Positions 45,160 through 63,208 of a stretch of DNA of 64,000 bases are shown piece by piece. This DNA comes from Porphyromonas vaginalis (GTDB lineage Bacteria > Bacteroidota > Bacteroidia > Bacteroidales > Porphyromonadaceae). The notes under the pieces were generated by a model. That model had not been told where the DNA came from, did no database searches, and was given only the letters and a program-made list of their open reading frames with translations. The translations under genes were made by a program, and so were the position numbers. The first letter of the stretch is position 1; each line of letters starts with the position of its first letter. Location of the stretch: NCBI RefSeq assembly GCF_958301595.1, contig NZ_CATQJU010000001.1, positions 1,364,001-1,428,000 on the forward strand, given 5' to 3'.

Positions 45160-45175
45160 GATTGTGGTGTGTAAA

Positions 45176-45757: not shown

Positions 45758-45818
45758 ACGGTCTATATTTGAGACGTTTCTATTTGCAACTAGAACTGTT
45801 TCGTCTTACATTACGACG

Positions 45819-45850: not shown

Positions 45851-45969
45851 ATCTGTGTAGTTTATTCTCGGATATTTGGTGAAAAGGCTGAGAAATAGTC
45901 GGACAAGATCGTCCTGTCAAGTGACGAAAAGCCTGTATTAAGGCGCATCTAGGTCGAAAAAGAGAATCC

Positions 45970-46128
45970 CCACGTAGGAAATCGAAAATCCCCACGTGGA
46001 GAAGAAAAAATTCTTCGGAAGAATGAAATGAAACTTCGGAGGAATGAAATGAAACTTCGGAAGAAATGATTCGCATCCACGTGGAAAAAGAAAGATAGCC
46101 ACGTGGGGATTTGATGATTTCCACGTGG
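45970..46128 (-). repeat. Palindrome-array element, CACGTG type, copy 3 (core only)
   Basis: Palindrome starts at 45970 (CCACGTAG), 45992 (CCACGTGG), 46013, 46034 and 46055 (CTTCGGAAG-type), 46077, 46099 and 46121 (CCACGTGG). All steps are 21 or 22 bp, with the same 2-3-3 order as copy 2. The unique arms of copies 1 and 2 are not found, so only the array core is shared. No other feature is visible in 45851-46276. Confidence 0.85.
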
Positions 46129-46276
46129 CTATTTCTATTAGAGGTGTACTGGTGATAGAGTAACCCGCTTTGCACGGTTCTCTTTAGCCACTCTGTCAAG
46201 AGGGCTCTCTGCTAGTCACCGATTATTGTCAAGGGGACTTGCCCCTGTCTAGATCTTAAGTCGCGACTACTTGTGA

Positions 46277-48754
46277 TCACTCACGAGTCATAAGCTTGTA
46301 AGTGATGCCGTTTAGTAGCAGTATGTAGCATTTGCTCGGCTCAAGTGTGAGCTGGCTCATAGCAGGGTAATCACCGTGAGCCACCATCGTACCATCTACT
46401 GTGTAGAGTGTCAGAGAGCTATGGTCCGTAAGTATCAACTTGACTCCATCAATTGTGTAGGCAGGCGCTGTGACGACATCTTGCAGTGATGTGATTTGGC
46501 TTACCTTGACATTGTCTACCTGATAGGTTGTGGTTCGCTTGCTTTGAGAGCTATCATCGCCTTCGTACTCGAAGAGGATGAAGCTATTGCTGATGCCCTT
46601 AGGCAAGACGATAGTCTCTGTGGTAAAGTTGTCAGCATATCCCTGCTCAGACTCCGTGGCGGTGAATGTCTTAAGCTCCTTAGTCAATTGTCCCTGAGCA
46701 TCGTAGAGGCAGACTTTGAGGGTTGCACCATTGCAGAATCCGCTCTTGAGGTCAAACTGCAGCTCGTACTCCTTGGCAGCGTCTATCGCTACAAGAGGCG
46801 TAATAAGTCCTACGGTCAGTTGCTCTCCACTCTTAAATGCTGAGAACTGGGCATACTGATTACTGTTGTACTCCTTGATAATCCATTGGCGAGTACCGAC
46901 TAGTGCCTGTGAGCTCCACCCCTCGGGTAAGGAGCCCGACTCAAAGTCCTCATTGAGAGAGATAGGTGTTGCCGTTGTGTCAAAGTGGTAGGAGGCTGGG
47001 GTCGGATCATCGTCATCATCGCCCTCGTTACCCTCTACGGTAGCTAGTACGGGAATCGCGAGAGATGCCTCGCCACTCTTCACTAGGATCTTGGTTGTAA
47101 ATGATCCCGACTTCTTAGCATCAAAGGCGATTGTTATATCTCCACCCTCCTTGGGTAGGGTCGTGGGGCTGATGGTAAAGCCTTCATCACCCTCTAGCGA
47201 TATAGTCATATCCTCGCTTAAGTCCTCTCCAGTGAGCGAGATCTGATACTCATCTCTCTCTCCAACGAGAAACTCTCCAAAGTCCACACGAGACTCACTC
47301 GCCTTGATGCTACCCGATGAGGGCTGGTCGCTCTCAGCATACACCTTAACATTGTCTAGTCGATAAGCCGTCGTGCGTTTTAGGCTCTTGTCGTCACTGT
47401 CCAGCCCCCTGTACAAGAAGGTGATAAAGCTATCATCACAGCCTGAGGGCAACAAGATCTCCATTGGAGTGAAGTCATCCCTCCACAGTACATTGTCGGT
47501 GTGGGAGAGTGTCGTGAGCTCCTTGACAACCTTGCCCGCCTTGTCTAAAAGTAGGACAGATAGCTCAGCTCCATTGGCAAAGCCCCAGTTGTAGTCGAAG
47601 GATAGCGTGTAGCTCTTTGTCGGATCCATATCGATCAGAGGTGTCGTTACGGCCGTCTCGACCTCTACACCTAGACCAAAGGGATTGATCTGTAGGAACA
47701 TATTATTGTTGTAATCTCGAACCTCCCACGCTAAACGACCTTTGAGAGGAATCTGACTCCACCCCTTGGGTAGATTGTAGCCAGAGTCGTCCCATCCGTA
47801 TGGCTCAAAGTCCTCATTGAGAGCTTGCGGAGTCATAGTGACGTTCACATTGTAGGGATTAGAGGGGTCCAAACCACGTCCGTAGAGCATAATCCCCTCA
47901 TAAAGATCTCCAGCCGTTGCGGAGAGAGAGGCTGAGTGACTGCCGCCCTCTGTGGGATGATAAGTGATGACCAGCTCACCACCCTCCTTAGGTAGGGTGG
48001 TGGTGCTCAGGGTAAATACTTTGCTGCTGTCAGTGAGTGAGAGCTGTATGTCCTCAGGGAGGTTGCGCCCGAGGAAGGTGATAGTGTAGGTGTGATCCTC
48101 GTTGATCGCACGACTATAGAAGTCGTAGCTACTTACGGAGGCGGTGAGCTCTTGCTCAGCGTTGGCAGGCTCTATGACGATGTCATCGATCTCGTAGGTC
48201 GTGGTCATGATAGGTCCTTGCGTGTTGTCGTCATTGCCGATGTACTCAAAGCATATATAGCCTGGCTCTGTCGTGTCAGGTAGGTAGAGTGTGTGCTCAT
48301 CCCAAAAGGGAGCCCAGTCTGGATGACTTTCTTTGATGAACTCCTCGAGGACTTGTACCACATTGCCATTGCGATCGAGTAGTTTCGTCACGAGCTTTGC
48401 TCCATTGGCATAGCCTGTATGACTCCAGAAGTTTAGCTGATAGCCCCGCCCCTCATTCGCAGGGAACTCAATCAGAGGGGATACGAAAGCTGTGGTACAC
48501 TTGCTCCCCGATTGGTAAGCTGTCATACGTAGAGCCGTATTCTCGTCAAAGGTCTTAAGGACCCACTGGCGTGATCCCTCTAGAGATACATTGAGCCAGT
48601 CAGTAGGGAGTTGCCCATCTTCGAAGTCTAGATCTATCGTCGTGCAGGCGATAGGGGTGGCTGTCGGATCTACTCCGTAGGGATTGCTCTGAGCGTGTGA
48701 GGAGCTCAGTAGTCCTAGGAGTAGTAAGGTGAAGAGGTAAAGTCTTTGTCTCAT
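46277..48754 (-). CDS. T9SS cargo protein with three choice-of-anchor J (adhesin-like) domains
   Basis: 825 residues. Signal peptide ending SSSHAQS. Three ~160-residue beta-rich modules begin with similar segments (LDFEDGQLPTDWLN ~45, LNEDFEPYGWDDSGY ~315, LNEDFESGSLPEGWSS ~600), typical of the choice-of-anchor J / cleaved-adhesin family of Porphyromonas gingipains. Ig-like linkers separate them (TLPKEGGELVITYHP and TLPKEGGDITIAFDA). The C-terminal ~75 residues (AYTIDGVKL...LTLYTVDGTMV...CYILLLNGITYKLM) look like the type IX secretion C-terminal signal. Thus probably exported across the outer membrane and surface-attached. No protease domain is present; binding to host or partner polymers is a guess. 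Confidence 0.85.
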   Translation of the reverse strand: MRQRLYLFTLLLLGLLSSSHAQSNPYGVDPTATPIACTTIDLDFEDGQLPTDWLNVSLEGSRQWVLKTFDENTALRMTAYQSGSKCTTAFVSPLIEFPANEGRGYQLNFWSHTGYANGAKLVTKLLDRNGNVVQVLEEFIKESHPDWAPFWDEHTLYLPDTTEPGYICFEYIGNDDNTQGPIMTTTYEIDDIVIEPANAEQELTASVSSYDFYSRAINEDHTYTITFLGRNLPEDIQLSLTDSSKVFTLSTTTLPKEGGELVITYHPTEGGSHSASLSATAGDLYEGIMLYGRGLDPSNPYNVNVTMTPQALNEDFEPYGWDDSGYNLPKGWSQIPLKGRLAWEVRDYNNNMFLQINPFGLGVEVETAVTTPLIDMDPTKSYTLSFDYNWGFANGAELSVLLLDKAGKVVKELTTLSHTDNVLWRDDFTPMEILLPSGCDDSFITFLYRGLDSDDKSLKRTTAYRLDNVKVYAESDQPSSGSIKASESRVDFGEFLVGERDEYQISLTGEDLSEDMTISLEGDEGFTISPTTLPKEGGDITIAFDAKKSGSFTTKILVKSGEASLAIPVLATVEGNEGDDDDDPTPASYHFDTTATPISLNEDFESGSLPEGWSSQALVGTRQWIIKEYNSNQYAQFSAFKSGEQLTVGLITPLVAIDAAKEYELQFDLKSGFCNGATLKVCLYDAQGQLTKELKTFTATESEQGYADNFTTETIVLPKGISNSFILFEYEGDDSSQSKRTTTYQVDNVKVSQITSLQDVVTAPAYTIDGVKLILTDHSSLTLYTVDGTMVAHGDYPAMSQLTLEPSKCYILLLNGITYKLMTRE

Positions 48755-48851
48755 AGTAAAGTGATAAGGTTTATGATGATCAGGCTTGATGATGCGCAGT
48801 CTCTATCTAGAGCGCACCACAAGGTACTGCCCACTAGAGCAGTTGCGGAGA

Positions 48852-48859
48852 CAAAGGTA
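48852..48859 (-). promoter_or_regulatory. Putative promoter (-7 box) of the T9SS protein gene
   Basis: TACCTTTG on the minus strand, 97 bp before the start codon. The gap to the next plus-strand gene (48860-48956) shows nothing else. Confidence 0.45.
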
Positions 48860-48956
48860 TGCTGATGATGTGAAGGGACTGTTACTACGGGTGCAATCTA
48901 GTACTAAGGATCCCCCCATGTCGTAGAGTTATGGAGTCTCTATTGATAGCTTTTCG

Positions 48957-48964
48957 TACATTTG
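48957..48964 (+). promoter_or_regulatory. Putative promoter (-7 box) of the left DUF4190 gene
   Basis: TACATTTG, 30 bp before the ATG; the same box is at 59461-59468. Confidence 0.45.
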
Positions 48965-48994
48965 ACATCGCAAAACATTATCAACTAGCTCCCT

Positions 48995-49342
48995 ATGGAA
49001 GTCAATACTCCTCCTCCTTACGAAAGCCGAAATGAGGAGCAACAGGACAAGCCAGTTACAAATGACTATGTCCAGAACGTGGTGCCGAGTCCGTGCAAGA
49101 ACCTTCTAGGGACGACGGGCTTTGCCTTGTCGTTGGTCGCCCTAGTCGTAGGTTGGTTCCCCGTCGTAGGTTGGATTGTATGGGTCTTAGGAGCCATCTT
49201 CTCTACTATTGGCATCTTTCGTAAGCCACGAAGTCTAGCCATTGCAGGGGCCTGTATCTCTTTCTTTTGGCTTATAATCTTCGTCCTAATCTTCGGCGTC
49301 TTTATGACGGCGGTTGTGGCCGATGGCTACGCTAATCCCTAG
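48995..49342 (+). CDS. DUF4190-type small membrane protein, left copy
   Basis: 115 residues. The first ~45 are polar and Gln/Asn/Pro-rich; then two hydrophobic helices (LGTTGFALSLVALVVGWFPVVG, and ISFFWLIIFVLIFGVFM) separated by a small basic loop with the GxxSTIGIFRKPRSLA pattern typical of DUF4190. Function unknown. Nearly identical to the protein at 59499-59846, with differences concentrated in the N-terminal polar part. Its stop overlaps the convergent wbqC copy by 4 bp. Confidence 0.8.
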   Translation: MEVNTPPPYESRNEEQQDKPVTNDYVQNVVPSPCKNLLGTTGFALSLVALVVGWFPVVGWIVWVLGAIFSTIGIFRKPRSLAIAGACISFFWLIIFVLIFGVFMTAVVADGYANP

Positions 49343-49851
49343 AGAAGCGAGATGCCCGATAGCTGGTCGTGGAGCTGTCGCAAGACGAGGAGCGACTCGG
49401 GTCCCATATTGAAAAGCAGGTCGAAGATACTGAGATTGGCGACGAAGCCGAGCGACCCGGCGAAGACTTGGTAGTACGGAACGGAGGCGATAGCCTCTTC
49501 TGTCGCTGTGCTGGCGGTGGAGATGGGCGGCAGGAGCTGTGAGCACACGTCAGCTGAGGTGCCGACATATTGCTCCGTCTCTTGCCACTGGTAGGGATGG
49601 TGGATGAGTTGGCAGATGCGCGAGATGAGCCGTTGGTTGTGCTGATAGAGCGATGTGGATCGGTGCGCTTTGTCGAGGTAGAGTGGCACTAGGTCGGGAG
49701 CGTAGTACTCGTAGTAAGGTGATGCGCCGTAGCAGGTCTCTATGGTGTACCAGTGCTTGTGTCGCCAGTTGTCATGCTCAGCGATCTGCACCGACTGGAT
49801 AGAGCACTGCTGTGAGGAGCCCGCGAGGACGGGGATAGAGAGCTTCATCAC
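49339..49851 (-). CDS. 5'-truncated WbqC-family protein (probable pseudogene)
   Basis: 170 residues homologous to residues ~48-217 of the intact protein at 59843-60496. The missing part is the N-terminus with the VLPTAYAPSVAYMSYLL segment. The ORF opens with a Met that is internal in the full gene (VMKLSIPVL), and homology ends within ~35 bp upstream of it at the island boundary. WbqC-like proteins are linked to polysaccharide biosynthesis, but the role is poorly defined. The truncated copy lacks its native start and promoter, so it is probably not functional. The edge coincides with the left island junction. Confidence 0.75.
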   Translation of the reverse strand: MMKLSIPVLAGSSQQCSIQSVQIAEHDNWRHKHWYTIETCYGASPYYEYYAPDLVPLYLDKAHRSTSLYQHNQRLISRICQLIHHPYQWQETEQYVGTSADVCSQLLPPISTASTATEEAIASVPYYQVFAGSLGFVANLSIFDLLFNMGPESLLVLRQLHDQLSGISLL

Positions 49852-49983
49852 CCCCTCGGCACCTACGATGGCGCAGCGATTGCGTATTGTCCGCTTCGGG
49901 GGGGAGGGAGGGGTTCCTTTCTCTCTGACAACAAGAGTGTAAATCAGCTACTGTACTATTAACAGTCTTTATCTCGTCTCAAA

Positions 49984-52323
49984 TTATTGTCTAAGAAAAG
50001 ATTTCAAGGAGAGAGTTTTGAACCCAAGAATTTTCGATTTGAGCTGTAATCCATTGTCCGATGTTAGCATGATAGGGTTTTGATCTTTATATTTTAATGC
50101 TACTGATATAATCATGTTATCAGGTGAACGCTTGTCAAAGTCTTCTGGCAAGAGAGCGGTGTTGGCAAACTCGTAGATAATCTCATGTTGTGTCTCGTTG
50201 TTCAGATTACGAAGAGCTTTCTCTGCATTGCGTTTACCTTCGTCACTCAACTTTATCTTCATCTTATCGAGTTCATCTGTGACCTTGGCAGACAAAATGA
50301 TAGGATATTTCTTATCAATCTTACTGATGATGTCCGGACAATTTACAAAGACATTCGTGTCTATGATGTAATAGTTCTTCTTGTTCGAGCTTAGCTCTTT
50401 TTTAGTGCGTTCAAACTTTGATAAGTCAATCTTTCCGACTACTTTTACTCCAATTGTTGGAGTAGAAACTTCTGATTTAGTCGTTTCCTCCATAGTTTGG
50501 CTTGGTTCTGTAATTTGAGTGGCTTCAATCTTGTTATTGGGAATAACCTTTATGCCTCCATCATACTTGTCGCAGTTATCAATAAATTGTAAGACTGTTG
50601 GTGATACTGTATGGAATTCGTGTAAAGGGATGTCAGAAATGATGAGTGTGGTGCTAAGCGAACGGCTCGTTGCGACATTGAAGCGACGGTCTTCAAGCGC
50701 AAATCCAGGGTTGCGCCCAGGGATATAAAAAACTGCATAATCAACTGTCATGCCTTGGATCCGATCAATGGTCTCAATGGTTATGTCCAACTCTATGTCA
50801 GATGTGCAAAATCGTTTTTGCAACTCTTTGACAGATTCACGAAATGGTGTAATAATCGCCAATGATCGTGTTGGATAATGACTCTCCATCGTATCAATCA
50901 CACTTTGGATGATTAGATTTGCTTTATCGGAATACACCCCATTGCGAGCATCAAAAGTACAATGGTATATGACACCTCCTCTAGTTGGAAAAAGAGGACT
51001 ATTAGCATCTGAAAAGTCAAGGTATTCTTTCTTTACTGACACAAAGCGGTTGCCGTAGAAAAGCTTGGTAAGAGTAGCTGAACGACTTGTAAGACGAAAT
51101 GTCGTAATAATACGATATGACGTAATCTGAGACCCTAACGCCACCGTTTTTAATCCTTCCACTTGAGTTGAGATATTCCACGAATTATATTGTGGATTGT
51201 TTAGTTTCACAATAGGTGGCAACTGCATAGGGTCGCCCACAATCAAGCAATTTATGCCTAACTGCTTAAAAGCCACGATAGTTGTAAGGAAGGCCTGAGA
51301 GGCCTCTTCTATGACTACTAGATCATATTGTGGTAATCCGTACAGGGCCTTCTTCTTCTCACTATAAACGCTCGCCAATTGATAATTTGTGGCACAAAGC
51401 AGTTCGCCTCTTGGAACTTGTAAATCAGCAGTAGCCTCTTTTATTCCAGGTACTTGCTTTCGCTCGTCAATAGAGAGGTTTGTCTTACTGACACGGCCTT
51501 GCTTGACATGCTTCTGGAGTGGCTTCTGTTTAATAAGCTCTATGAGACCTTTGTTCGCCATAGTGGTGACACAAACAGCTTTACTAGCATCAAGGTATGA
51601 AGAAATAATCGACGCTATGGTATAACTCTTACCAGTGCCTGGAGGACCTTGTACGATACAGCAATGTTCATTGGCGAGTGTATCTATGATAGTGTCAGAG
51701 ATACTTGTTGGCTTCTGCTCATCAAATGCAAGTTCCTCGGGATCCCACTCTTCATAATTGATAGTTGGTTCAAGGTTAAGTTCCTTGTTTGAAGAGAACG
51801 CATCTATATAGTTGGATAGGTCGCGATAATACTCTACAGGAGGAAATGGGTTGTGAACTATAAGTGAAAGACTTTTACCATCAGCCAATGCCTTTGATAA
51901 TATGTCATACAACTTAAAGCTAAATCCAGAGCATGCAACATAGTCATAATCGGGGTCACCAGTATGCATATAGTACATCGGGGTCATGTCAGAACCGGGA
52001 GAATGGAAGTCCTTATTGCTTACGAACTCCTCCCAGCGGCATGTCCACTCTGTAACGTGCACACCTAATGCCTGCTTTGCACCTTTCTTTATTATGCACA
52101 CACCTTTTTGGACTTTCAAGCGAGGAGCCATACAATGGGGGCATTTAAGGATAATCATACCTGTCTCGCTCTGAATGGAGTCTACATAAGCAAGAGACAG
52201 CTCGCCTTTTTTGAACAGGTCTCGCATCTGCAAGCGGTTTATCTTTTGTTGCTCCTCGATTGCCTCCTTTACTTGGTCTGCAAAGAATGACTTATAGTTG
52301 GAAAGCTTGATATTGTCTGTCAT
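49984..52323 (-). CDS. SF1 (DNA2/NAM7-like) helicase with C-terminal PIN nuclease domain
   Basis: 779 residues. The helicase core is split AAA_11/AAA_12: Walker A GPPGTGKS (226-233), DEAS-like VVIEEAS (336-342), GDPMQLPPIV (363-372), then ETIDRIQGMTVDYA (517-530) and NVATSRS (549-555). From ~645 a PIN_4-like domain follows: IIDTNVFV (Asp655), VTDELDKMK (Glu684), SPDNMIIS (Asp735) and LTSDNG (Asp756), which together give the four acidic residues of a PIN RNase. The N-terminal ~200 residues, with CPHC at 61-64, are unrecognised. The combination suggests an ATP-driven translocase feeding a nucleic acid to a ribonuclease. It starts 2 bp after the stop of the giant sacsin-like gene, so the two form one transcript. 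AT-richer than its chromosomal neighbours. Confidence 0.85.
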   Translation of the reverse strand: MTDNIKLSNYKSFFADQVKEAIEEQQKINRLQMRDLFKKGELSLAYVDSIQSETGMIILKCPHCMAPRLKVQKGVCIIKKGAKQALGVHVTEWTCRWEEFVSNKDFHSPGSDMTPMYYMHTGDPDYDYVACSGFSFKLYDILSKALADGKSLSLIVHNPFPPVEYYRDLSNYIDAFSSNKELNLEPTINYEEWDPEELAFDEQKPTSISDTIIDTLANEHCCIVQGPPGTGKSYTIASIISSYLDASKAVCVTTMANKGLIELIKQKPLQKHVKQGRVSKTNLSIDERKQVPGIKEATADLQVPRGELLCATNYQLASVYSEKKKALYGLPQYDLVVIEEASQAFLTTIVAFKQLGINCLIVGDPMQLPPIVKLNNPQYNSWNISTQVEGLKTVALGSQITSYRIITTFRLTSRSATLTKLFYGNRFVSVKKEYLDFSDANSPLFPTRGGVIYHCTFDARNGVYSDKANLIIQSVIDTMESHYPTRSLAIITPFRESVKELQKRFCTSDIELDITIETIDRIQGMTVDYAVFYIPGRNPGFALEDRRFNVATSRSLSTTLIISDIPLHEFHTVSPTVLQFIDNCDKYDGGIKVIPNNKIEATQITEPSQTMEETTKSEVSTPTIGVKVVGKIDLSKFERTKKELSSNKKNYYIIDTNVFVNCPDIISKIDKKYPIILSAKVTDELDKMKIKLSDEGKRNAEKALRNLNNETQHEIIYEFANTALLPEDFDKRSPDNMIISVALKYKDQNPIMLTSDNGLQLKSKILGFKTLSLKSFLRQ

Positions 52324-52325
52324 AA

Positions 52326-55300
52326 TCAGTAGTCGTTGTCGTCGTAATCATCATTGCCGTCCTCTGCTTCTGCCATAGCACCAACATAGTGAGCGAATAC
52401 GGCATCCATATTTGTACGTGAAGCAACACGTATTAAGGTATACGCAGTACCCTTGACACCTTCGAGCAATCCTCCGTAGAGAGCCTTGATGACAGCCACT
52501 TTCTCCTTACCGGTAATCTTGATAACAACATCGTCTTTTTCTACGAGTTTCAGGAATTCCTCGGCGTTGTTGATGAAGTGGAAATTCTTGCCTTGTCCAT
52601 CAAGATAAACGCAAATACTCCACCTACCATTGACTACGTTATTCCATACTGAGGGAGAAACGTACATTACGCCACGAGCCGCACTACAAGTATGAATGTA
52701 TCTACCATCTTTAAGTTTGTGTACAGTTACATCACTCGCATTACGCACGAACTCTTCCATCGTCTCCTCAGGCTCTGCATGCATCTCATTTTTGAGGTTC
52801 TGGTACAGACGCAACTGAGCAAGATAGTTGGTGTCGGCAATCTGATCTGGCTTGATGTTACATTGAGCCAAGAGGTCAATTTCTTCCCTTGTTGGCCGTA
52901 ATGACTCAAGTTCGAGAGGTGTACCATGCGAACGAAGACGCTCAATTTCCTCGTGGGTGAAATTCTTCAGATGCTTACGAGTGCGAGGCTTGTAAGGTCT
53001 GTCTCCGACTGGCTGATAGTCCTTATCCTTATCAACAGACCCCATGTAACCATTTCTATCAGGATCGTAATCTTTATGAGGCTTATTCGAAGGAGAGTGA
53101 GATGTGCCAGAAGTTTGATTCTGGGCAGACCTTGCTTCCTCCTTATCCGTCGTGTCAACATCATCGTCAACTTCTACATCTTCCGTTTCATCTACTTCTT
53201 CATAATCATCGTTATCAATTTCACCTTCATCAACCTGCTCGTAAGTATCATACTGTTCAAGATCATCATCTGCCTCATCCTCTGTTGTAGATGAAGTTGC
53301 ATAACCAGCAGGTGAGTCTGTACGTTGCTGTTGTAGACGAGAGTCAGAAGCAGGTCGCTGCGATTCGGCTTGGGTAGGAGCTTGTGATGTTGGCGTTGTT
53401 TCTGCATCATCTTCTTCTTCAACTTCTGGCTCGTCTGCAGGTCTTGCCATTACATCAGTATTTGAAACGGATGGATTATCATTCACGCTAACGACTTTTG
53501 TTGAGTCAATTTGCGGGTCTTCTGTTAATGTGTCGGCCGTTTCTTCTGTAGCGAGATTTGCAGAATCATTCGTAGTATCACTATAGTAGTCTGTTTCGGT
53601 ATCGACAGGTTCTGCTTTCTCCGGCTCTATATTAATGGTCAAACCCAAGGACTTAAGACAAGCGCGGAATTTTTCATCGTATGTGAGTGAAGAGCAATAC
53701 TTTTCGATGCATGCTTCTACAGTAACACTATCATCAAGAACGTCTTCACATACATTATCATACACGTCAAAACCTACCAGTTGCTTCAATCTACTACAGA
53801 ACTTTGTAAAGGTACGATTATGCTTCCATGAGCTTACATAATAAAGGTGGTTGTCATCGTTATAGATACGCTCCACATCATTATGTATCGTGTCATAACC
53901 TAGGTCTATCCTTTCACATACAACAAAATGATACTGCGACAGCTTTGTATTATAGCGTTCGTAGAGTTCTTGAAATCGAACTGGGTTCTCGATAGCCGAC
54001 AAGATAAGCAGACGAGGTCTAAGTATGGCAACCATCTCCTCAGTTTCATCTTGTTTGCCTATAGGTGTTGCCACAAAATCAGAACTTGTCAGACATTTTA
54101 TCTTCAGCATGTCGCAAACTTTCACAAAGGGATCACTGTCTGTTGGAAATGCGCTTGTTCCCATAACAAACTCATCACCACGGAAGATGTTCCTTTCCTG
54201 CGTTGCATCTGGATGAATAGCATAAAGTTCCGTAATATGCTTCTTCTGCCCCTTGCCATTACGCCATTCTGCAGTTGGCGTTTTACGATAGTTGTCAACT
54301 AATGTCTCATCTTGATTAGGCGAAGAAAGCATCCAATTTATCACAGTTTTACGGAAATAAGACTCCTTATCTCTTGGATGTGTAACCCGTGCAAGGTAGT
54401 AAAGGCAATCTTCAAAAGAGAGAGTTTTAAGGAAGTTGATCTTTTCAAATAATTCGCGAGCATCACGATTATCAATAGAGTCGATGATCGCTTTGCAAGG
54501 AACCTTCTCTTGCCATTGAGGTGCCTTGGCACGAACAGCATAACCAGCTATGTGAGGTGCATACAACAACTCCGGCTTCTGGACAGAATTCTCTGTTGGG
54601 ATGCATACAACATTATTGAAGGCCCCTTTCTCTATCCAAGTTTCGTATTCTGACCAGCGACGAGAGAAGCATTCTGCCCAGAAGTAGCATGCAAATGTGC
54701 GATTATCAAGGAACTTCAAATCATCAAGCGTCATATTCTGATGCAAGCCTTCTGCTTTGAAGTATGACTTGATGATATCCTTATTATCCTCAAAGATATA
54801 TGCGTCAGAAAGATATGATAGCTCTGCCACACCATTCCCCTCAAAGTCACACGTTGGAGAATAAGCAGATCCAAGTGTCAGTTCATTAGCAAACTTGTAG
54901 GTTGTCTCTGTAGACTTTACAAGATATTTGATCTGTTTCCGAAGGTCCTTGTCGATGTTGTACTCATTCTGTATTTTGGCAACCTCACGCACAAACTGGA
55001 TATGAATGTCGGAAATACTACTTTCATCGTCAGCAAATTTAGCAAGATAATCCTTCACCTTCGCTTCAATCCACCTTTGCTTTGTAGTGATAAGATTGCG
55101 ATTATTGTATTCCTCAGAGATAAGCAGTAACAACTCTTTGTTTTTCTTCGCGATGTCTGGATGCACCTCGTCGGATAGGGTAATATACTTGAATGGTTCA
55201 GAAATAGAGGCTTCATCCACATGAACGATTAAGGCTTGTTTGAGAGTCTTATACTCGCCAGATTGAGTGCGTACTCGAAGTTGGACAATTTGCTGTCTTC

Positions 55301-58300
55301 TTTCTTCCCAGTTGTCCTTTAAATCCTTTAGATGCTTGGTCATCATCGCAATAACCGAATCCAAAGACTCTGCCTCAAGCGAAGCAAGATTAGGCAGAAT
55401 GTCAGAGAATAAGATGTCCTTATTATCAGATTTAAGACCTAATGTCTTGAAGAGCTTCAACCACTCCACCTTCTCACTCTCGTTGTTAGTTCCAATGTAT
55501 GCTGAAGACACAAACTTGGCTGTCTTTACATATTTGGTTACTAAATCCTCTATCTGTTCTTTTTGATATGAGTCAGAGATATAAAGCGATGTGTTGGCAG
55601 TTATGACATCGTTTGTGTCGAGCAAAGGAATCGCCTCGAACTTGTCAACCGCAGCAATCTGCTTTTGGTTTGTTTTTACCCAACGCCAGAAATCAATGTT
55701 GTTTGCCACATCGTTTATTGATTGGCGCAAGTGTGCACTCCGTGCGAGAATGTCGGTTATCGCATTGATGTCAAATTTTGCGATCTTAAAAAATTGAAGT
55801 ACATCTTGTGAGAAGTCATCTGTGTAGCTCTGAGCGAGTACAACATACGTCTTTGGGCACCAGGCTTTTTCATACAGTGTTTTAGCATCTTCGTTATATT
55901 CAAGATACTGGATATCTGCTTCTCTTGATTTTATTACGCTTCCATTATAGGCAAGCAACGGCATATCCTTGATGTTGTTGAAGCTCATACTGCCATCAAA
56001 AATCCTATCTGCATCTCGCTTCAAATACTTCAAGAAGGTCAGCATCGTAGCTTCATCTACAAGAGTAGGGTAGATACCCTCCTTATTCTTGATAACAACA
56101 TCTGTAAAGAAAGATTTGTCCGTAAAAGTTTTTACACCAAACTGCTGACGCAAGAATGACTCCAATTTCTTTGCGTCTTCCTTTTCATAGCCATCAAAAT
56201 ATGCATTCGAAAGCGCATACATCATACTTTCTTGCATCCATATATGACTTATATTATCTGCATAGGAGCTATTCTGTTCGAGTGCCTCTTGATTGAAGTA
56301 GCGCACCTTATCGTTACAAAGGTAAATATCGTTGCCCTTAATATCAGCACAAAGCAAGACGTAATCTTTGAAACTGTTTCCTTTCAGCTCTGCATCACCA
56401 TGAAACACGTAATCAACAAAAGCCTTGTTGGCTCCATAGTTATTCTCTATAGTAGCATTAACTTTTGCTTGGAAATTAGTATCGCTAACAATTACATCAG
56501 TGATGAATGATTCCGTAGTGAATTTCTTGAATCCGAGATAATCAAAAATGGTGGCTAGCTTCTCTTTCTCTTCAACAGACAAGCCCTCAAAATAGATGTG
56601 AGACAGAATGTTGACAATATTATCGCCCATCCAAACTTCTTGAATCAGGTCGTAAGCATCGTCATTGAAGAAATAACGATAATTGGTGTAGTCGGTGCTC
56701 ACTTTGCCATCCTCTGTGATATATGGGACTTTTCTGCCATCAGCCTTTAGATTCACATCATTTGCTGATAGGTAACGATAGAATGCTACCGAGTTCTCTG
56801 GCACGGTGAGCCGTTCCATGGCATCTTTATCGGAAAGAATGAAAGTAGTAATCATTGAAGCTGCAGAGAATGCCCGGAAATACTCATCAGCAAATGCCTT
56901 CCAGTTGCAATCTTCTTCAAAACTAATTCTTGAAGCATCGCAAAGATGTGGAATAAACCTGCGCAGAAATCCTATTCCACTACAATTAGCGTCGAAATCA
57001 TAGTAGAGACTTCCTGCTGTAAACAAATTGCCTTTGTATTCAATAAATATATTTTTCTTTGCAAACTCGTTTAGTTCATCCTCACTCAACCAATGTCTTA
57101 TAAATCGTGTATTGTTCTCGGGAACTGTCAACCATGTCTGGAAATTAGTTTCCTCACATTTCTTTACAACAGCATCAACCTTTACATCAAGGCTTGAAGG
57201 AGAATGCTTGTACAAGAAATCCATGAATGCCTCCGATTGTCTTAACTCATCAACTGGCAAGGAGTAGTCACCCAACTCCATAAGAATTATGAAGTCTTTG
57301 TCAGAAATGACTCCGTTCGCTGTCATGCCAGTCATGTCGTTAATAATATTGTCGATGCATTCAAAGGTTTGTTCACCATTCTTGTCCACGCATGGAACAA
57401 AAGGCTCTTCTTTTATGAGCTTTTCAAATTCTTCCTGGAACTCCTCTATAAACGTCTTATACACGCGTCTCTTCTTGCACTCATCAAAGTCTGGGATAAG
57501 TGCAAAGATAGAGTCAAGGTCGTATTTTTTGCTTTCAATAAGTTGCTTGATCCAATAAAAGAACTGTTTACCGGCAATACGAGCAATAACGTGATTGAGT
57601 TCGATGTCCTCAATATCATCACGTTGGCCATTTGGCACCATATCGGTGTTCATTAGGAAATTGAAGCCCCAATCAGCACGCTTCGCTGGAAGGTAGCAAT
57701 ACAATATGGCATCATCAACGGGCATTAACTTGCGTCCGTCTTTCCTGCAGGCAAACTTTACCGCGGTCTTACGGAAGTTTCTATACTTCTCTGGGATTTT
57801 CTCATAACCATCAGAACGAAGTGAATCGGGATTTGCTAAAACATCGTTTATCTTATCGGTGATTTCCTCTGGTATATCATCAACAAGAGCATCCGAAACA
57901 CACCAGTCTTTATTGTCTTTTTCGCGTATAATCGGCTCTTGCTTACCTTCAATAAAGATGCTTACCTTCTTGATGTTTGGGATGAATAATATGACACGTT
58001 CTGAGTCGAACACATCTGTGAATAAATCGACATAGTTATCGTCTCTATCTTCGTCCATTAGTATTTCCGCATCTCTTGGTCGAAGTGCAAACTTCACTCT
58101 AAACTCATCATTAGGATGCCGGAGAAATATCGACTTTATATCAGGGTCTATTTTATTATACTCTGTCCAAATAGGTAGTATCTGCCATGGGGTGTTGATC
58201 ACATCAGTAGCTGACTTGTCAAATCTAAAAGAATACTTACCTGAGTTTAGAAGCACGTAGTCGCTGTCAAGGAATACGGTCTTAAAGCCAATGCCTTTAT

Positions 58301-58991
58301 ATCCAATGACTTCTGAATTGTCTGCCTTTTCGCCATCATTTATATCGCAAATGGCTGCAATGTTCTTAGGATTGAAATAGTCGCCCGTATGCTGGAATAT
58401 TAGATACCGCTTTGTAATATGAAATTCCACTTCAACAGGTAAGGCTTGATACTCGTTATTATTAGTACGACGAGGATAGTCATTAGCATTCTGCAAAAGC
58501 TCATAGATGAACACTTCTTTGCCACTCTGTGTGAGCTGCTTTTTGAGAGTGTCTAGTGAACGAACAATCTTCTTCGCGGCACCTGCAGGATAACGCATTA
58601 TGCCATTGTAAAGGCTGCTCACAATCGCTTTCTGCCATACTGGCGTTACTTCTTTGTGCAAGTCAATACCAAACTTGAAAGGATCTGTCTCAAGTAGCAC
58701 CCATGTGAATTTGTAATAAGCAAAACGCTTAAAGTCTTCATCGCTTCTAAATGATATTGATAGATTTTTGATGCCACGTTCCTTGTCCTCAATCTTTATG
58801 AAGTCAGTATTACGGATGTCTCTTATCGTGTACCATCCTTCATGCTTTTGTGGTGCAAACTGACCAATAAACTGATTGTTTTCGAGACGCAATCTTCGTT
58901 TGACACTTTCTGCAGCTTTTGAATTTGCATACGTAATGCCCTTGCGTTGAGTGTTATGTCGTTTTGACTCTTTTATTGGATGATCCTGCAT
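52326..58991 (-). CDS. Giant (2221-residue) protein with sacsin/Hsp90-like GHKL ATPase domain
   Basis: No signal peptide or membrane segment. Residues ~140-330 resemble the sacsin-type GHKL ATPase: N-box IYELLQNANDYP (162-173, Glu164, Asn168), CDINDGEKADNSEVIGYKG with the glycine-rich GYKGIGFKTVF (230-240) that corresponds to GxGxG/GIGF motifs. Residues ~330-1830 are long, mostly alpha-helical, without motifs I know. ~1840-2000 is acidic and low-complexity (long runs of Asp/Glu, Thr, Ser), a likely flexible linker. A conserved-looking C-terminal domain (~2060-2221) contains DGRYIHTCSAARGVMYVSP. Large GHKL ATPases with helicase partners are typical of prokaryotic conflict systems. No named system is recognised. 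Upstream lies a -7 box at 59175. Confidence 0.8.
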   Translation of the reverse strand: MQDHPIKESKRHNTQRKGITYANSKAAESVKRRLRLENNQFIGQFAPQKHEGWYTIRDIRNTDFIKIEDKERGIKNLSISFRSDEDFKRFAYYKFTWVLLETDPFKFGIDLHKEVTPVWQKAIVSSLYNGIMRYPAGAAKKIVRSLDTLKKQLTQSGKEVFIYELLQNANDYPRRTNNNEYQALPVEVEFHITKRYLIFQHTGDYFNPKNIAAICDINDGEKADNSEVIGYKGIGFKTVFLDSDYVLLNSGKYSFRFDKSATDVINTPWQILPIWTEYNKIDPDIKSIFLRHPNDEFRVKFALRPRDAEILMDEDRDDNYVDLFTDVFDSERVILFIPNIKKVSIFIEGKQEPIIREKDNKDWCVSDALVDDIPEEITDKINDVLANPDSLRSDGYEKIPEKYRNFRKTAVKFACRKDGRKLMPVDDAILYCYLPAKRADWGFNFLMNTDMVPNGQRDDIEDIELNHVIARIAGKQFFYWIKQLIESKKYDLDSIFALIPDFDECKKRRVYKTFIEEFQEEFEKLIKEEPFVPCVDKNGEQTFECIDNIINDMTGMTANGVISDKDFIILMELGDYSLPVDELRQSEAFMDFLYKHSPSSLDVKVDAVVKKCEETNFQTWLTVPENNTRFIRHWLSEDELNEFAKKNIFIEYKGNLFTAGSLYYDFDANCSGIGFLRRFIPHLCDASRISFEEDCNWKAFADEYFRAFSAASMITTFILSDKDAMERLTVPENSVAFYRYLSANDVNLKADGRKVPYITEDGKVSTDYTNYRYFFNDDAYDLIQEVWMGDNIVNILSHIYFEGLSVEEKEKLATIFDYLGFKKFTTESFITDVIVSDTNFQAKVNATIENNYGANKAFVDYVFHGDAELKGNSFKDYVLLCADIKGNDIYLCNDKVRYFNQEALEQNSSYADNISHIWMQESMMYALSNAYFDGYEKEDAKKLESFLRQQFGVKTFTDKSFFTDVVIKNKEGIYPTLVDEATMLTFLKYLKRDADRIFDGSMSFNNIKDMPLLAYNGSVIKSREADIQYLEYNEDAKTLYEKAWCPKTYVVLAQSYTDDFSQDVLQFFKIAKFDINAITDILARSAHLRQSINDVANNIDFWRWVKTNQKQIAAVDKFEAIPLLDTNDVITANTSLYISDSYQKEQIEDLVTKYVKTAKFVSSAYIGTNNESEKVEWLKLFKTLGLKSDNKDILFSDILPNLASLEAESLDSVIAMMTKHLKDLKDNWEERRQQIVQLRVRTQSGEYKTLKQALIVHVDEASISEPFKYITLSDEVHPDIAKKNKELLLLISEEYNNRNLITTKQRWIEAKVKDYLAKFADDESSISDIHIQFVREVAKIQNEYNIDKDLRKQIKYLVKSTETTYKFANELTLGSAYSPTCDFEGNGVAELSYLSDAYIFEDNKDIIKSYFKAEGLHQNMTLDDLKFLDNRTFACYFWAECFSRRWSEYETWIEKGAFNNVVCIPTENSVQKPELLYAPHIAGYAVRAKAPQWQEKVPCKAIIDSIDNRDARELFEKINFLKTLSFEDCLYYLARVTHPRDKESYFRKTVINWMLSSPNQDETLVDNYRKTPTAEWRNGKGQKKHITELYAIHPDATQERNIFRGDEFVMGTSAFPTDSDPFVKVCDMLKIKCLTSSDFVATPIGKQDETEEMVAILRPRLLILSAIENPVRFQELYERYNTKLSQYHFVVCERIDLGYDTIHNDVERIYNDDNHLYYVSSWKHNRTFTKFCSRLKQLVGFDVYDNVCEDVLDDSVTVEACIEKYCSSLTYDEKFRACLKSLGLTINIEPEKAEPVDTETDYYSDTTNDSANLATEETADTLTEDPQIDSTKVVSVNDNPSVSNTDVMARPADEPEVEEEDDAETTPTSQAPTQAESQRPASDSRLQQQRTDSPAGYATSSTTEDEADDDLEQYDTYEQVDEGEIDNDDYEEVDETEDVEVDDDVDTTDKEEARSAQNQTSGTSHSPSNKPHKDYDPDRNGYMGSVDKDKDYQPVGDRPYKPRTRKHLKNFTHEEIERLRSHGTPLELESLRPTREEIDLLAQCNIKPDQIADTNYLAQLRLYQNLKNEMHAEPEETMEEFVRNASDVTVHKLKDGRYIHTCSAARGVMYVSPSVWNNVVNGRWSICVYLDGQGKNFHFINNAEEFLKLVEKDDVVIKITGKEKVAVIKALYGGLLEGVKGTAYTLIRVASRTNMDAVFAHYVGAMAEAEDGNDDYDDNDY

Positions 58992-59437
58992 ATTGTATCT
59001 TCGTGAATGATTTATTCTACTAATCCTTTAGGTGAAGTCTGGAGCAAATTTGATACTTTGAAGATTGTATCGAGACTTGGTCACTTGCGACTACACAACA
59101 TAAGCGTTGGTAATACTAAGACTAACACCTCAGCTAGTTGGCTCTATGGGGGCTGTTTATCTCAGTACTGACCACAAAGATACAAACTTGCAACAAGTCT
59201 GCTCTCTTTTGAGATTTGTACACCTTGGTGGCAACTATCTGAAACTTCTACGCAGAAAATCGAAAAAAATTCCATATGGAGGTTGGCGAATTTCCTCGTG
59301 GGGATCATCCTTTTCTAAGCAAATTCGTATCGTTGGCTTATGAGGGATTCTAATTTATAGTGGGCAGTGTGGCACTCCTCCAGCATCTCAAAAGTGGGTG
59401 TTGGCCTCAAAATAGGAATAAGTAGATAGACTCGCTA
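58992..59437. other. Right end of the island, non-coding, with a degenerate palindrome array
   Basis: 446 bp without a gene. At 59240-59305 there are imperfect palindromes (CCATATGG at 59272, CCTCGTGG at 59294, 22 bp apart, and TTCT-ACGC-AGAA at 59246), looking like a decayed CACGTG-type array. A -7 box lies at 59175-59182. Confidence 0.5.
59175..59182 (-). promoter_or_regulatory. Putative promoter (-7 box) of the giant ATPase/helicase operon
   Basis: TATCTTTG on the minus strand, 184 bp before the ATG of the 2221-residue gene. The -33 box is unclear. Confidence 0.45.
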
Positions 59438-59460
59438 GAGTTTCTGTTGATAGCTTTTCG

Positions 59461-59468
59461 TACATTTG
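59461..59468 (+). promoter_or_regulatory. Putative promoter (-7 box) of the right DUF4190 gene
   Basis: TACATTTG, 30 bp before the ATG. Confidence 0.45.
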
Positions 59469-59498
59469 ACATCGCAAAACATTATCAACTAGTTTCCT

Positions 59499-59846
59499 AT
59501 GGAAGTAAATACTCCTCCTCCCTATGAAAACCGAAATAAGGAGCAACAGGACAAACCCGTTACAAATGTATACGTTCAGAATGTGGTACCGAATCAGAAC
59601 AAGAATTCTCTAGGTACTGCAGGCTTCACCTTGTCGCTGGTCGCTCTAGTCGTAGGCTGGTTCCCCGTCGTAGGCTGGATTGTGTGGGTTCTGGGAGCCA
59701 TCTTCTCTACTATTGGCATCTTTCGTAAGCCACGAGGTCTAGCCATTGCAGGGGCCTGTATCTCTTTCTTTTGGCTTATAATCTTCGTCCTAATCTTCGG
59801 CGTCTTTATGACGGCGGTTGTGGCCAATGGCTACGCTCATCCCTAG
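59499..59846 (+). CDS. DUF4190-type small membrane protein, right copy
   Basis: 115 residues, same architecture as 48995-49342: polar N-terminus, two hydrophobic helices (LGTAGFTLSLVALVVGWFPVVG and ISFFWLIIFVLIFGVFM) and a basic GIFRKPRGLA loop. Differences from the left copy are nearly all in the N-terminal ~55 residues, showing selection on the membrane part or recent exchange. Function unknown. It converges with wbqC with a 4 bp overlap. Confidence 0.8.
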   Translation: MEVNTPPPYENRNKEQQDKPVTNVYVQNVVPNQNKNSLGTAGFTLSLVALVVGWFPVVGWIVWVLGAIFSTIGIFRKPRGLAIAGACISFFWLIIFVLIFGVFMTAVVANGYAHP

Positions 59847-60496
59847 AGAAGCGAGATGCCCGATAGCTGGTCGTGGAGCTGCCGCAAGACGAGGAGCGAC
59901 TCGGGACCCATATTGAAGAGCAGGTCTAGGATACTGAGATTGGCGATGAAGCCGAGCGACCCGGCGAAGACTTGGTAGTACGGAACGGAGGCGATAGCCT
60001 TTTCGGTCGCTGTGCTGGCGGTGGTGATGGGTGGCAGAAGCTGTGAGCACAGGTCAGCTGAGGTGCCGACATATTGCTCCGTCTCTTGCCACTGGTAGGG
60101 AAGGTGGATGAGTTGGCAGATGTGCGTGATGAGCCGCTGATTGTGCTGATAGAGCGATGTGGATCGGCGCGCTTTGTCGAGGTAGAGTTTTGCTAGGTCG
60201 GGAGCGTAGTACTCGTAGTAAGGTGATGCGCCGTAGCAGGTCTCTATGGTGTACCAGTGCTTGTGTCGCCAGTTGTCATGTTCCGCGATCTGCACCGACT
60301 GGATAGGGCACTGCTGTGAGGAGCCCGCTAGGACGGGGATAGAGAGTTTCATCACCCCCTCGGCACCTACGATGGCGCAGCGATTGCGGTAGGTCTGCTT
60401 CTGATAGTACTCGTGTGCCTCTATACGCGTGGAGCTGTCCAGTAGATAGCTCATATAGGCGACTGAGGGAGCGTATGCCGTGGGGAGTACTACCAT
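59843..60496 (-). CDS. WbqC-family protein, intact
   Basis: 217 residues, full length. The N-terminus (VVLPTAYAPSVAYMSYLLDS) and NRCAIVGAEGVMKLSIPVLAG match the WbqC-like family. It contains HWYTIETCYGASPYYEYYAPDL and NQRLI...YVGTSADLC. Family members occur in O-antigen/capsule clusters and are predicted to act as transferases, but the activity is not proven. In Bacteroidota a wbqC gene often lies next to signal peptidase genes, as here (overlapping the next gene by 7 bp). Probably co-transcribed with dapB, lepB and the degenerate S26 gene. Confidence 0.85.
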   Translation of the reverse strand: MVVLPTAYAPSVAYMSYLLDSSTRIEAHEYYQKQTYRNRCAIVGAEGVMKLSIPVLAGSSQQCPIQSVQIAEHDNWRHKHWYTIETCYGASPYYEYYAPDLAKLYLDKARRSTSLYQHNQRLITHICQLIHLPYQWQETEQYVGTSADLCSQLLPPITTASTATEKAIASVPYYQVFAGSLGFIANLSILDLLFNMGPESLLVLRQLHDQLSGISLL

Positions 60497-60975
60497 ATTA
60501 TGGTCGCTGTGATCTCTGAGCAGTGGATTGGTCCGAGGTGGCGCGAGTCTATCGTCTCTGCCGTGAGCGGGGGCTTGGCTAGAAGCCAGTATTCATCTGG
60601 AGCCAAGATCACTTCGTAAGTGCTTTGCTGTAAAGGCTGGGGGAGTGGCATGATAAAGGTTTGCCGGCCACGCTTGCCCAGGACCAGGAGCTTGCCCTCG
60701 GTAAAGCGCAGGGTATCGCTTGGCTCGCCCACAACTCGTAGCATGAGTTTGCTCCCAGCTAAGCTGTCGGCTGTTAGCGTGAGGAGCACATTGTCGCCTC
60801 GATGTGGCTGTGCGATGCGGCTCATCAGGTGGTAGCTAGTACCGCTAGGTGTGGGCTGGCGATAGACAAAGAAGAAGAGACGTCCGACGATGATGAGTCC
60901 TACCATGATCATCGGAAGTACCCAGCGTAGCCAGGTGGCTCGTCTCTTCGTCGCTATGTCAGAGTGGCTGGCCAT
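60490..60975 (-). CDS. Degenerate S26 signal-peptidase-like membrane protein
   Basis: 161 residues with one N-terminal transmembrane helix (WVLPMIMVGLIIVGRLFFFVY). The rest follows the S26 peptidase fold: RGDNVLLTL, then LMLRVVGEPSDTLRFTEGKLL, which aligns with the YVKRVIGLPGDTIEI motif, and DEYWLLAKPP...IDSRHLGPIHCSEIT, which aligns with the GDNR-xNSxDSRxxGPV box. The catalytic Lys position is Leu, and the catalytic Ser motif (PSMEPTL type) is absent. It is therefore likely catalytically inactive and may be a partner or scaffold for the active LepB encoded immediately upstream (17 bp overlap). Confidence 0.75.
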   Translation of the reverse strand: MASHSDIATKRRATWLRWVLPMIMVGLIIVGRLFFFVYRQPTPSGTSYHLMSRIAQPHRGDNVLLTLTADSLAGSKLMLRVVGEPSDTLRFTEGKLLVLGKRGRQTFIMPLPQPLQQSTYEVILAPDEYWLLAKPPLTAETIDSRHLGPIHCSEITATIIW

Positions 60976-62377
60976 GTATCGTGTGCATCATACGTCTCCA
61001 GCGTATCTTGCCGCCCCAGAGACCTAGATCCTTGTCTAGCGAGAGCCAGAGGAGAGCGGGGCGCCCTACGATATGATCCTCGGGGACGAAGCCCCAGTAG
61101 CGACTATCGGCAGAGTTGTGACGATTGTCACCCATCATATAGTAGTAGTCCATCCCAAAGGTGTAGTGCGTGGCAGGCTGTCCGTCGATGAGAATGGTGC
61201 CATCGGGACGCTGCTCGAGAGCGTGCCCCTCGTAGTTGTGTATGCACCGGCTGTAGAGTGCTAAGGCTTCGGGCGTAAGCTCGATGGTGAGCCCCTTGCG
61301 TGGTATCTGTAGTGGGCCGTAGTTGTCACGGGTCCAGCCGAGGTTGTAGCCTACGGGGTAGAGATTGGTATTGGGGTCTTGCGACACAACGATCTTAGCG
61401 ACACGGCTATCACTGGCTAGTTGCTGGCGCATAGTCTCCGTGAGGGGAAGCAGGTAGAGTGCCTGCAGATCGTTGGGGTCGACACCAGCTAAGCCCATCT
61501 CCTCGAGGTCGGCTGTCGTGAGCTGTGATGCGGAGACCACATGCTGGTCATCGAGGCTAATGCCTAGATGCTTAAGCTCCTCAGCGGAGAAGCGTCCTCC
61601 ACGGGTGCAGACCCAATAGTTGAGCTGCATCTGCTCGGGGCGCGCCTGTAGCTTGCCATTGATATAGATGTCGTTGTTGCGTATCTCGATAAGGTCGCCC
61701 GGTAGTCCCACACAGCGCTTCACATAGTGGTCACGACGATCCACGGGGCGGTAGACGATCTTGCCGAAGACCTCAGGCTGAGCCTCCAGGGCAGCCCGTC
61801 CGCCATACATCTCTTTGAGATAGTAGTAGTCGGGGTTGGTCACCTTGGTTGTTACGGTGTCGCCCGTGGGGAAGTTAAAGACAACCAGGTCGCCACGCTG
61901 TACCTTTCGGATGCCTTTGAGTCGCTTGTAGGATAGCTGTGGCTTGCTGAGGTAAGACTCACGGCCGAGGAAGCGGTTTTGCGTTAGTGGCACCTGCAGC
62001 GGCGTCATCGGCATACGGGGACCGTAGGTCACTTTGTCCACAAAGAGGTAGTCACCCACGAGGAGTGTCTTCTCCAGAGAAGAGGTGGGGATGGCAAAAT
62101 TCTGAATGAAGAAGATGCTGAGCAGATGCACGCCGATGACCGCCCAGAGGAGGTCTGCCAGTAAGGAGACGAAGCCCCGCAGCGTCTTGTTCTTGATGTT
62201 GCGATACCAAGACCAATTGATGAACTTGGTAAAGTAGTAGTCCAGGATAAAGGGGAGGAAGACCAACCAAAAGGGTCCCGCCCAGAGTATGCAGAAGAGG
62301 AGGTAGAGGATCGGTATGACGATGGCTACAATCTTCTGAAAGAGGGTCTTCTCTTGCCAGTGAAGCTTGATTTTCAT
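60959..62377 (-). CDS. lepB: Signal peptidase I
   Basis: 472 residues, S26 family, with three or four hydrophobic helices in the first ~95 residues, an extended form compared with E. coli LepB (324). Catalytic Ser100 is in AIPTSSLEKTLLVGD; the catalytic Lys is in YVKRCVGLPGDLIEI; the final box is MGDNRHNSADSRYWGFVPEDHIVG. A long insertion (~250-400) lies between the Lys motif and the last box, as in other Bacteroidota enzymes. It cleaves signal peptides at the periplasmic face of the inner membrane. It starts 27 bp after dapB. Confidence 0.95.
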   Translation of the reverse strand: MKIKLHWQEKTLFQKIVAIVIPILYLLFCILWAGPFWLVFLPFILDYYFTKFINWSWYRNIKNKTLRGFVSLLADLLWAVIGVHLLSIFFIQNFAIPTSSLEKTLLVGDYLFVDKVTYGPRMPMTPLQVPLTQNRFLGRESYLSKPQLSYKRLKGIRKVQRGDLVVFNFPTGDTVTTKVTNPDYYYLKEMYGGRAALEAQPEVFGKIVYRPVDRRDHYVKRCVGLPGDLIEIRNNDIYINGKLQARPEQMQLNYWVCTRGGRFSAEELKHLGISLDDQHVVSASQLTTADLEEMGLAGVDPNDLQALYLLPLTETMRQQLASDSRVAKIVVSQDPNTNLYPVGYNLGWTRDNYGPLQIPRKGLTIELTPEALALYSRCIHNYEGHALEQRPDGTILIDGQPATHYTFGMDYYYMMGDNRHNSADSRYWGFVPEDHIVGRPALLWLSLDKDLGLWGGKIRWRRMMHTIHGQPL

Positions 62378-62404
62378 AGCGTGAAAGGGGCTGTATGGGT
62401 AGGA

Positions 62405-63130: not shown

Positions 63131-63159
63131 AGTAGTTAGTAGCGGTTTGATAAGCCAGT

Positions 63160-63194
63160 GTGCGTGAGGAGCGATATGTCTCCTCACAGCACAC
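63160..63194. terminator. Hairpin between the OmpH-family gene and dapB
   Basis: GTGAGGAG (63164-63171) / CTCCTCAC (63180-63187) with outer TGTGC/GCACA pairs. No long T-tract, so it may be an attenuator or an mRNA-stability element rather than a full terminator. Confidence 0.5.
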
Positions 63195-63208
63195 GTAGTG
63201 TAGGTTTT

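Follow-up and report, generated by a model that had tools for sequence, protein, structure and literature searches.

A TmtA-like GHKL giant and an adjoining superfamily 1 helicase encoded in an inserted segment of Porphyromonas vaginalis

The inserted segment and its two genes

We analyzed 64,000 bp of the Porphyromonas vaginalis contig NZ_CATQJU010000001.1 (forward-strand positions 1,364,001 to 1,428,000; this whole stretch is called the window), in which a low-GC segment contains two genes on the minus strand, 2 bp apart. The upstream gene (52326-58991) encodes a giant TmtA/sacsin-like GHKL protein of 2221 amino acids (aa), and the downstream gene (49984-52323) encodes a 779-aa superfamily 1 (SF1) helicase of the UPF1/IGHMBP2 type that ends in a PIN domain, as assigned by Pfam, PDB matches, and a tree. 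The lengths, strand, and spacing agree with an earlier note made from the sequence alone, which had proposed an undescribed defense or conflict module of two genes in a lower-GC segment. Loci from relatives are given below as L numbers and their genomes as G numbers.

The sacsin/Hsp90-type ATPase domain of the giant occupies about residues 156-347 (57951-58526, minus strand), and its N-box ELLQNAND with Glu164 and its GYKGIGFK motif are present as that note had read them. NCBIfam model NF047352 (sacsin N-terminal ATP-binding-like domain) matched at 65.9 bits (cutoff 50), and the Pfam SACS score of 25.4 fell below its cutoff of 32.8. In a search of PDB sequences, the best match of the giant family profile was sacsin (E 2.7e-9). 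The claim that no named system matches was not borne out, since the giant matched the PADLOC model PDLC03972 for TmtA, the Tiamat protein, with E 1.4e-91 over its N-terminal third. This match is partial in length; its best stretch covers profile positions 4-420 of 1302, and a genome search gave a further PDLC03972 stretch at 817-1191. As far as sequence tells, the protein family of the giant is already known (TmtA/Tiamat).

Pfam matches to the helicase were above their cutoffs for PIN_4 (69.3 bits, cutoff 21.9), AAA_11 (56.6, cutoff 27), and AAA_12 (41.3, cutoff 27), and the Walker A lysine is Lys232. The PIN_4 nuclease domain, about residues 650-779 (49987-50376, minus strand), carries the four acidic residues noted before (D655, E684, D735, and D756). 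Against the PDB, the helicase family profile matched SMUBP-2 (E 1e-26), SEN1 (2.8e-22), and UPF1 (6.4e-19). PADLOC defense models matched the helicase only through pieces of the helicase core, including MkoA of Mokosh (79 bits in three stretches).

An empty site in a same-genus genome (G636, L122) and the drop in GC place the unique insert, to which no strand is assigned, at 49898-59437 (9,540 bp). The segment proposed earlier (49885 to 59437) therefore stands with sharpened limits, and the duplication that flanks it had been missed. GC content in 2-kb intervals is 39.5-43.6% inside the segment versus about 48-57% directly outside, and it dips to about 45% elsewhere in the window too. The remaining open reading frames (ORFs) of the segment, 89-124 aa long and on the opposite strand, are taken as spurious, and no integrase gene was found among the insert ORFs.

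The insert lies between the copies of a direct duplication, in which 893 of 965 aligned positions are identical. The left copy (48934-49897) holds a 115-aa membrane ORF and a 5'-truncated WbqC-like gene, and the right copy (59438-60401) holds the 115-aa ORF and continues into an intact WbqC-like gene (59843-60496; WbqC 110.8 bits). This flank is single at the empty site of G636, where L122 positions 1297-7191 align with window 44001-49897 (95%) and positions 6231-10746 with window 59438-63991 (91%). Because the two alignments overlap by a single flank, the extra DNA of the window amounts to the 9,540 bp and one copy of the flank. Two matches to the WbqC-like gene occur only in the window genome, and the 24 other matching same-genus genomes (25 others searched) have one each. 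In comparisons with four empty-site relatives, the left and right copies showed about the same similarity, and the module helicase had no match in the three same-genus genomes listed in the order survey. Horizontal acquisition of the segment is supported, and single-crossover uptake of flank-carrying DNA would produce such a duplication. Separately, the 115-aa ORF region is itself present twice at the empty site of a same-genus genome (L123, 7196-8790).

Pairing of the giant and helicase genes

Searches with the helicase matched three of 296 phylum genomes at 1e-20 (that of the window included; one by the PIN domain only) and 11 of 393 order genomes at 1e-30 (G422 by PIN only). A 13-row helicase profile matched 17 of the same 393 genomes; the weakest pair-type fragment scored 350 bits, and the next matches, at 160 bits or below, were other helicases or PIN proteins. 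The pair-type helicase is patchy, being present in 10 of the 393 order genomes with the window genome and one fragment counted. Close relatives came from contigs of Phocaeicola massiliensis (L029), Candidatus Cryptobacteroides (L030), Muribaculaceae (L031), and a Bacteroides metagenome-assembled genome (L032).

In the co-occurrence survey that the earlier note had proposed, the two genes were found together elsewhere: the giant lies directly upstream in 14 of 16 pair-type helicase loci (window included), with gaps of -14 to +8 bp. The two unpaired loci are L032, which runs off its contig, and L028, a 312-aa helicase fragment without a giant. Some copies look decayed, as the L016 giant lacks the ATPase N terminus, the L031 helicase is split, and the L022 PIN domain is truncated. 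Gene order in these loci establishes that the predicted giant and a dedicated UPF1/IGHMBP2-like SF1 helicase constitute one conserved pair, overlapping or abutting.

Both members of the pair keep their diagnostic features. The N-box ELxQNAxD is present in all 13 paired giants whose N terminus is kept (absent in L016), and Pfam SACS matched 12 of the 14 paired giants at E<=0.01; the same scan gave no DnaJ or HEPN match. Some relatives match TmtA models over most of their length, including the paired giants of L024 (PDLC03972 positions 1-1138 of 1302) and L021 (PDLC03970 positions 3-1538 of 1552). The L021 and L025 giants contain the N-box and match TmtA models, yet blastp did not match them to the window giant. 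In the 13 aligned helicase rows, the SF1 motifs GPPGTGK, EASQ of the [DE]EASQ motif, GDxxQ, QGxT, and NVxTSR are invariant, and in a tree with nine other SF1 helicases from this order, a 100/100 branch sets the 13 apart. Eight of the 13 carry the PIN domain, with D655, E684, and D735 kept in all eight and D756 in the seven that are untruncated. Because the domain is missing from the other five, PIN is not an obligatory effector, and its role as a universal effector was ruled out. Between the window and L029, dN/dS values of 0.09/1.58 for the helicase core and 0.11/0.81 for the giant show that both proteins are under purifying selection.

Exchanged domains and the C terminus of the giant

The PIN domains and helicase cores have different histories. 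The window and L019 helicases are 25% identical in the core and 79% in PIN, the corresponding values for L017 and L026 are 27% and 78%, and those for the window and L017 are 50% and 64%. In approximately unbiased (AU) tests of groups picked after these identities were seen, the core data rejected PIN-like groupings (p 8e-36 and 4e-171), and the PIN data rejected core groupings (p 8e-5 and 2.5e-4). These comparisons show, for the predicted proteins, that the PIN domain was exchanged between divergent helicases. At 1e-8, this PIN was found in seven of the 393 order genomes; four of them, counting that of the window, have it with pair helicases, and the other three with a separate operon of four genes.

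A single comparison points to exchange in the giant as well. The L031 and L029 giants are 23-52% identical over residues 1-700 (100-residue bins) and 82-96% identical over residues 701-1800, implying that the N-terminal, ATPase-bearing unit may have been swapped; in the window giant this unit corresponds to about the first 700 residues (56892-58991, minus strand). Different domains were found in or near this unit among relatives: an S1 domain in the L019 giant N terminus and in the ORF directly upstream of the L022 giant, and a TerB domain in the L031 giant N terminus. OST-HTH scored 13.2 bits in L030 (cutoff 23.8), with none in L029, and is a lead rather than a finding.

Giants without the helicase were drawn from a TmtA profile survey, in which 46 of the 393 order genomes and none of 14 control genomes matched at 1e-10. 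From this survey we took 23 giants without a recognized pair-type partner, and a further three came from plasmids, giving 26. Contig-end fragments or broken copies (L101, L148, and L149), a 601-aa protein that resembles HtpG (L147), and short-frame matches to the C-terminal end of the TmtA profile were left out; L084 is counted among the 26, although its contig stops 141 bp downstream and its partnerless status cannot be judged. A C-terminal NOV_C (DUF3883) domain was found in 13 of the 26 partnerless giants versus none of the 14 paired giants (Fisher p 0.001, uncorrected for kinship). Within the PDLC03972 subfamily, the partnerless L082 and L083 giants have NOV_C, and in the paired L024 giant the model match ends at position 1138 of 1302. 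DUF3883 is listed as a novel restriction endonuclease domain in Table 1 of PMC3710099.

Pfam NOV_C matched none of 10 C-terminal pieces of paired giants at E<=10 and none of the 14 whole proteins at E<=0.01. By hhalign, two C-terminal slices of the paired giants (alignment A2) matched NOV_C rows with P 1.1e-4 and 1.9e-4 (probability 57% and 48%), over 76-78 columns with matching positions, and 22 other slices of giant and helicase, used as controls, gave P 0.057-0.96. The signal was weaker (P 0.0021, probability 13.5%) with A3, a separate C-terminal alignment of paired giants from which the badly aligned L026 was excluded. The ExK glutamate was not seen by eye in any paired giant row. Paired giants thus seem to retain an inactive, diverged NOV_C remnant, which in the window giant would lie at about residues 2059-2139 (52575-52817, minus strand). 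An ExK motif scan was too crude and was not used, nor was an AlphaFold model of the giant C terminus (four sequences; mean pLDDT 40.8); searching PDB sequences with the C-terminal alignment returned MJ0882 as the single match (E 0.0053).

Two of the 26 partnerless giants, L089 and L090, have AAA_11/AAA_12 helicase domains fused at the C terminus. These single proteins (L089, 4705-9495; L090, 348-5141) combine a sacsin/TmtA N terminus with a C-terminal SF1 helicase matching MkoA profiles.

These data bear on whether the locus is simply Tiamat, with the giant alone as the defense protein and the helicase as an accessory or passenger. The giant does match TmtA profiles, and the PADLOC models encountered (nine TmtA models, PDLC03964-PDLC03972) hit paired and partnerless giants alike. 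Nevertheless, we regard this explanation as quite unlikely, given the close spacing of the two genes in 14 of 16 loci whose helicases are divergent, the purifying selection on the helicase, the restriction of NOV_C to partnerless giants, and the fusion of an SF1 helicase to two of those giants.

Neighborhoods, proposed mechanism, and known systems

Ten chosen proteins from five relatives were scanned with PADLOC; nine matched, and defense neighbors were found at four of the five relatives (L020, L022, L026, and L030). At L026, a prokaryotic Argonaute gene (3059-5137) ends 26 bp upstream of the giant, and type I restriction (R) and DUF1016 nuclease genes are nearby. The L022 pair has a type II methylase neighbor and the L030 pair a type I R gene, and at L020 (101-18523) the pair stands in a same-strand gene row that also encodes a split type IIG enzyme and helicases resembling DruE and DrmD. 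By eye, the L023 neighborhood resembles that of L020, the L029 neighbors include HsdS, integrase, and mobilization genes, and the L024 neighbors are mostly unrelated genes. The L021 gene at 2988-4442 (484 aa), upstream of the paired giant, matched nothing in PADLOC or Pfam at the thresholds applied; by eye, it appears to encode a second, smaller GHKL-like ATPase.

DISARM-related genes were seen only at L020 and, by eye, L023, and no DISARM helicase or methylase gene was found among the window neighbors (ORFs by eye; four neighbors domain-scanned). Elsewhere in the window, two tandem paralogues on the plus strand (2263-6324 and 6593-9394) appear by eye to encode proteins with long BspA-type leucine-rich repeat arrays behind a Ser/Thr kinase-like N terminus, and an IS30-like transposase gene was seen by eye at 14977-15948 (plus strand).

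The restriction-modification genes that adjoin the pair in L020, L022, L026, and L030, together with the split type IIG enzyme and DruE-like and DrmD-like helicases of L020, would suit a variant in which the giant and helicase act on phage DNA alongside restriction systems, as in DISARM-type helicase operons, with PIN nicking single-stranded DNA. IGHMBP2/UPF1-like helicases act on both DNA and RNA, which fits such a variant too. It is nonetheless unlikely: S1 domains are found at the N termini in two relatives, PIN domains are best known as RNases, and inspection by eye showed no methylase next to the pair at L017, L021, L024, or L025, or in the window.

An alternative in which phages are not the main target is a stress or RNA quality-control machine made of a chaperone and an RNA helicase/RNase. 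Sacsin is a chaperone, and UPF1-like helicases and PIN nucleases serve RNA decay. Neither protein matched phage records, nor, in single-protein scans, viral contigs, where the helicase profile (A1) gave one weak SF1 match (23% identity) among the matches listed. Against such a machine stand the patchy presence of the pair-type helicase (10 of 393 order genomes), its insertion by horizontal transfer, the exchange of cassettes, and the defense neighbors, and we consider it very unlikely. In plasmids, there was no helicase match covering 80% of the query among the matches listed and no match for the L021 giant; three DUF3883 sacsin-type genes were found, none with an annotated helicase adjoining.

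Our preferred interpretation, which we consider probable, is that the two genes form a mobile immune module with a Tiamat-type (TmtA) ATPase as its basis, and that its effector function, once held by a nuclease domain in cis, now lies with a coupled helicase or helicase-nuclease. The module proposed in the earlier note is retained as a conserved, horizontally acquired two-gene unit with defense genes beside several relatives; the note's view that the pair matches no named system is not. Both the defense activity and the RNA or DNA target are inferred, as is the earlier note's division of labor, with the giant sensing or loading and the helicase-PIN degrading nucleic acid. In the mechanism we propose, the N-terminal unit of the giant would recognize a phage product, probably a nucleic acid, as two relatives have S1 domains, which bind RNA, within this unit or immediately before it. 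Closure of the Hsp90-like domain, driven by ATP, would then license the helicase, docked on the C-terminal region of the giant, to translocate on the target nucleic acid, and PIN, where present, would cut that target, more likely RNA than DNA.

Several observations weigh against this immune-module interpretation. The window copy lies among housekeeping genes and not in a defense island, and its neighbors are not defense genes. The window copy also lacks the N-terminal extension of about 80 aa present in L029 and L030. NOV_C is absent from half of the partnerless giants too, its nuclease activity is itself a prediction, and the fused helicases of L089 and L090 fall outside the pair clade. Five of the 13 aligned helicases are without PIN, the PIN tree is weakly resolved (eight rows, no starred branch) with a long L022 row, and the after-the-fact choice of AU-tested groups counts here as well. 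A mirror-tree analysis was rejected as proof of co-evolution, since its r of 0.80 (3 of 9999 permutations as high) rests on close copies and drops to 0.23 (844 of 9999 permutations) without L029 and L030. Finally, the RNA target derives from family knowledge and the S1 domains of two relatives.

More tentatively, and with about even chances at best, the pair may represent a two-component architecture distinct from Tiamat, in which a sacsin-type ATPase giant, whose N-terminal recognition and ATPase cassettes are exchangeable (S1, TerB, and possibly OST-HTH-like), drives a UPF1-like helicase that is translationally coupled to it and bears an exchangeable PIN RNase. This architecture would have arisen when the giant lost the activity of its cis NOV_C nuclease and the helicase took over as effector. 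If so, the parts that recognize the target and those that carry out the effector chemistry behave as plug-in units in evolution. The constant, separable helicase partner, the decayed cis domain, and the natural exchanges provide a handle on the role of each part in the Tiamat family, and calling Tiamat from one gene would presumably leave the helicase half of these loci unnoticed. In combining sacsin, UPF1, and PIN elements, the pair parallels components of chaperone and RNA-decay systems in eukaryotes and is useful for tracing their origins.

No description of the sacsin-giant/helicase pair was found in the portions consulted of open-licence literature, PMC3710099 and PMC10952713 included, a result that does not imply absence from print. 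The pair shares features with several known proteins and operons. A four-gene operon in L027, L099, and L100 encodes an SF1 helicase, a PIN protein (about 750-926 aa), a protein of ~210 aa, and an AAA protein of ~540 aa; L003 shows its last three genes, with the AAA protein cut. The PIN domain of this operon shares 39-56% identity with that of the window in three genomes (44% in L003), and the PIN gene adjoins the helicase gene in L027 (by eye), L099, and L100. In contrast to the pair, the stretches seen contain no sacsin giant, and neither the L027 nor the L100 helicase belongs to the pair clade. UPF1, IGHMBP2, and SEN1 share the SF1 motifs and PDB matches, whereas the pair helicase has its own N-terminal region, carries a C-terminal PIN in eight of 13 cases, and sits directly behind the giant. 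Mokosh is similar in the SF1 helicase core of MkoA, but no match beyond that core was found, and the companion here is a GHKL giant.

Animal sacsin has the same GHKL ATPase type and gave the best PDB sequence matches of the giant profile; the giant differs in showing one ATPase module and neither a DnaJ nor a HEPN match. The closest comparison is with Tiamat. It is listed as a reported defense system of unknown mechanism (PMC12926258) and in genomic-island hotspots (PMC12629846). The pair resembles TmtA in the sacsin/Hsp90-type N-terminal ATPase on a very large protein, with clear profile matches. Tiamat, which was reportedly described by Millman et al. in 2022, is a one-gene system. Here, two genes are present, the helicase abutting the giant in the window and in 13 further loci. 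Moreover, the C-terminal NOV_C of partnerless relatives, not an established hallmark of Tiamat, is not recognizable as such in the window giant, in which it appears degenerate, and a dedicated SF1 helicase, often with PIN, is added. Thus, we conclude that the new element is the helicase partner and not the giant family.

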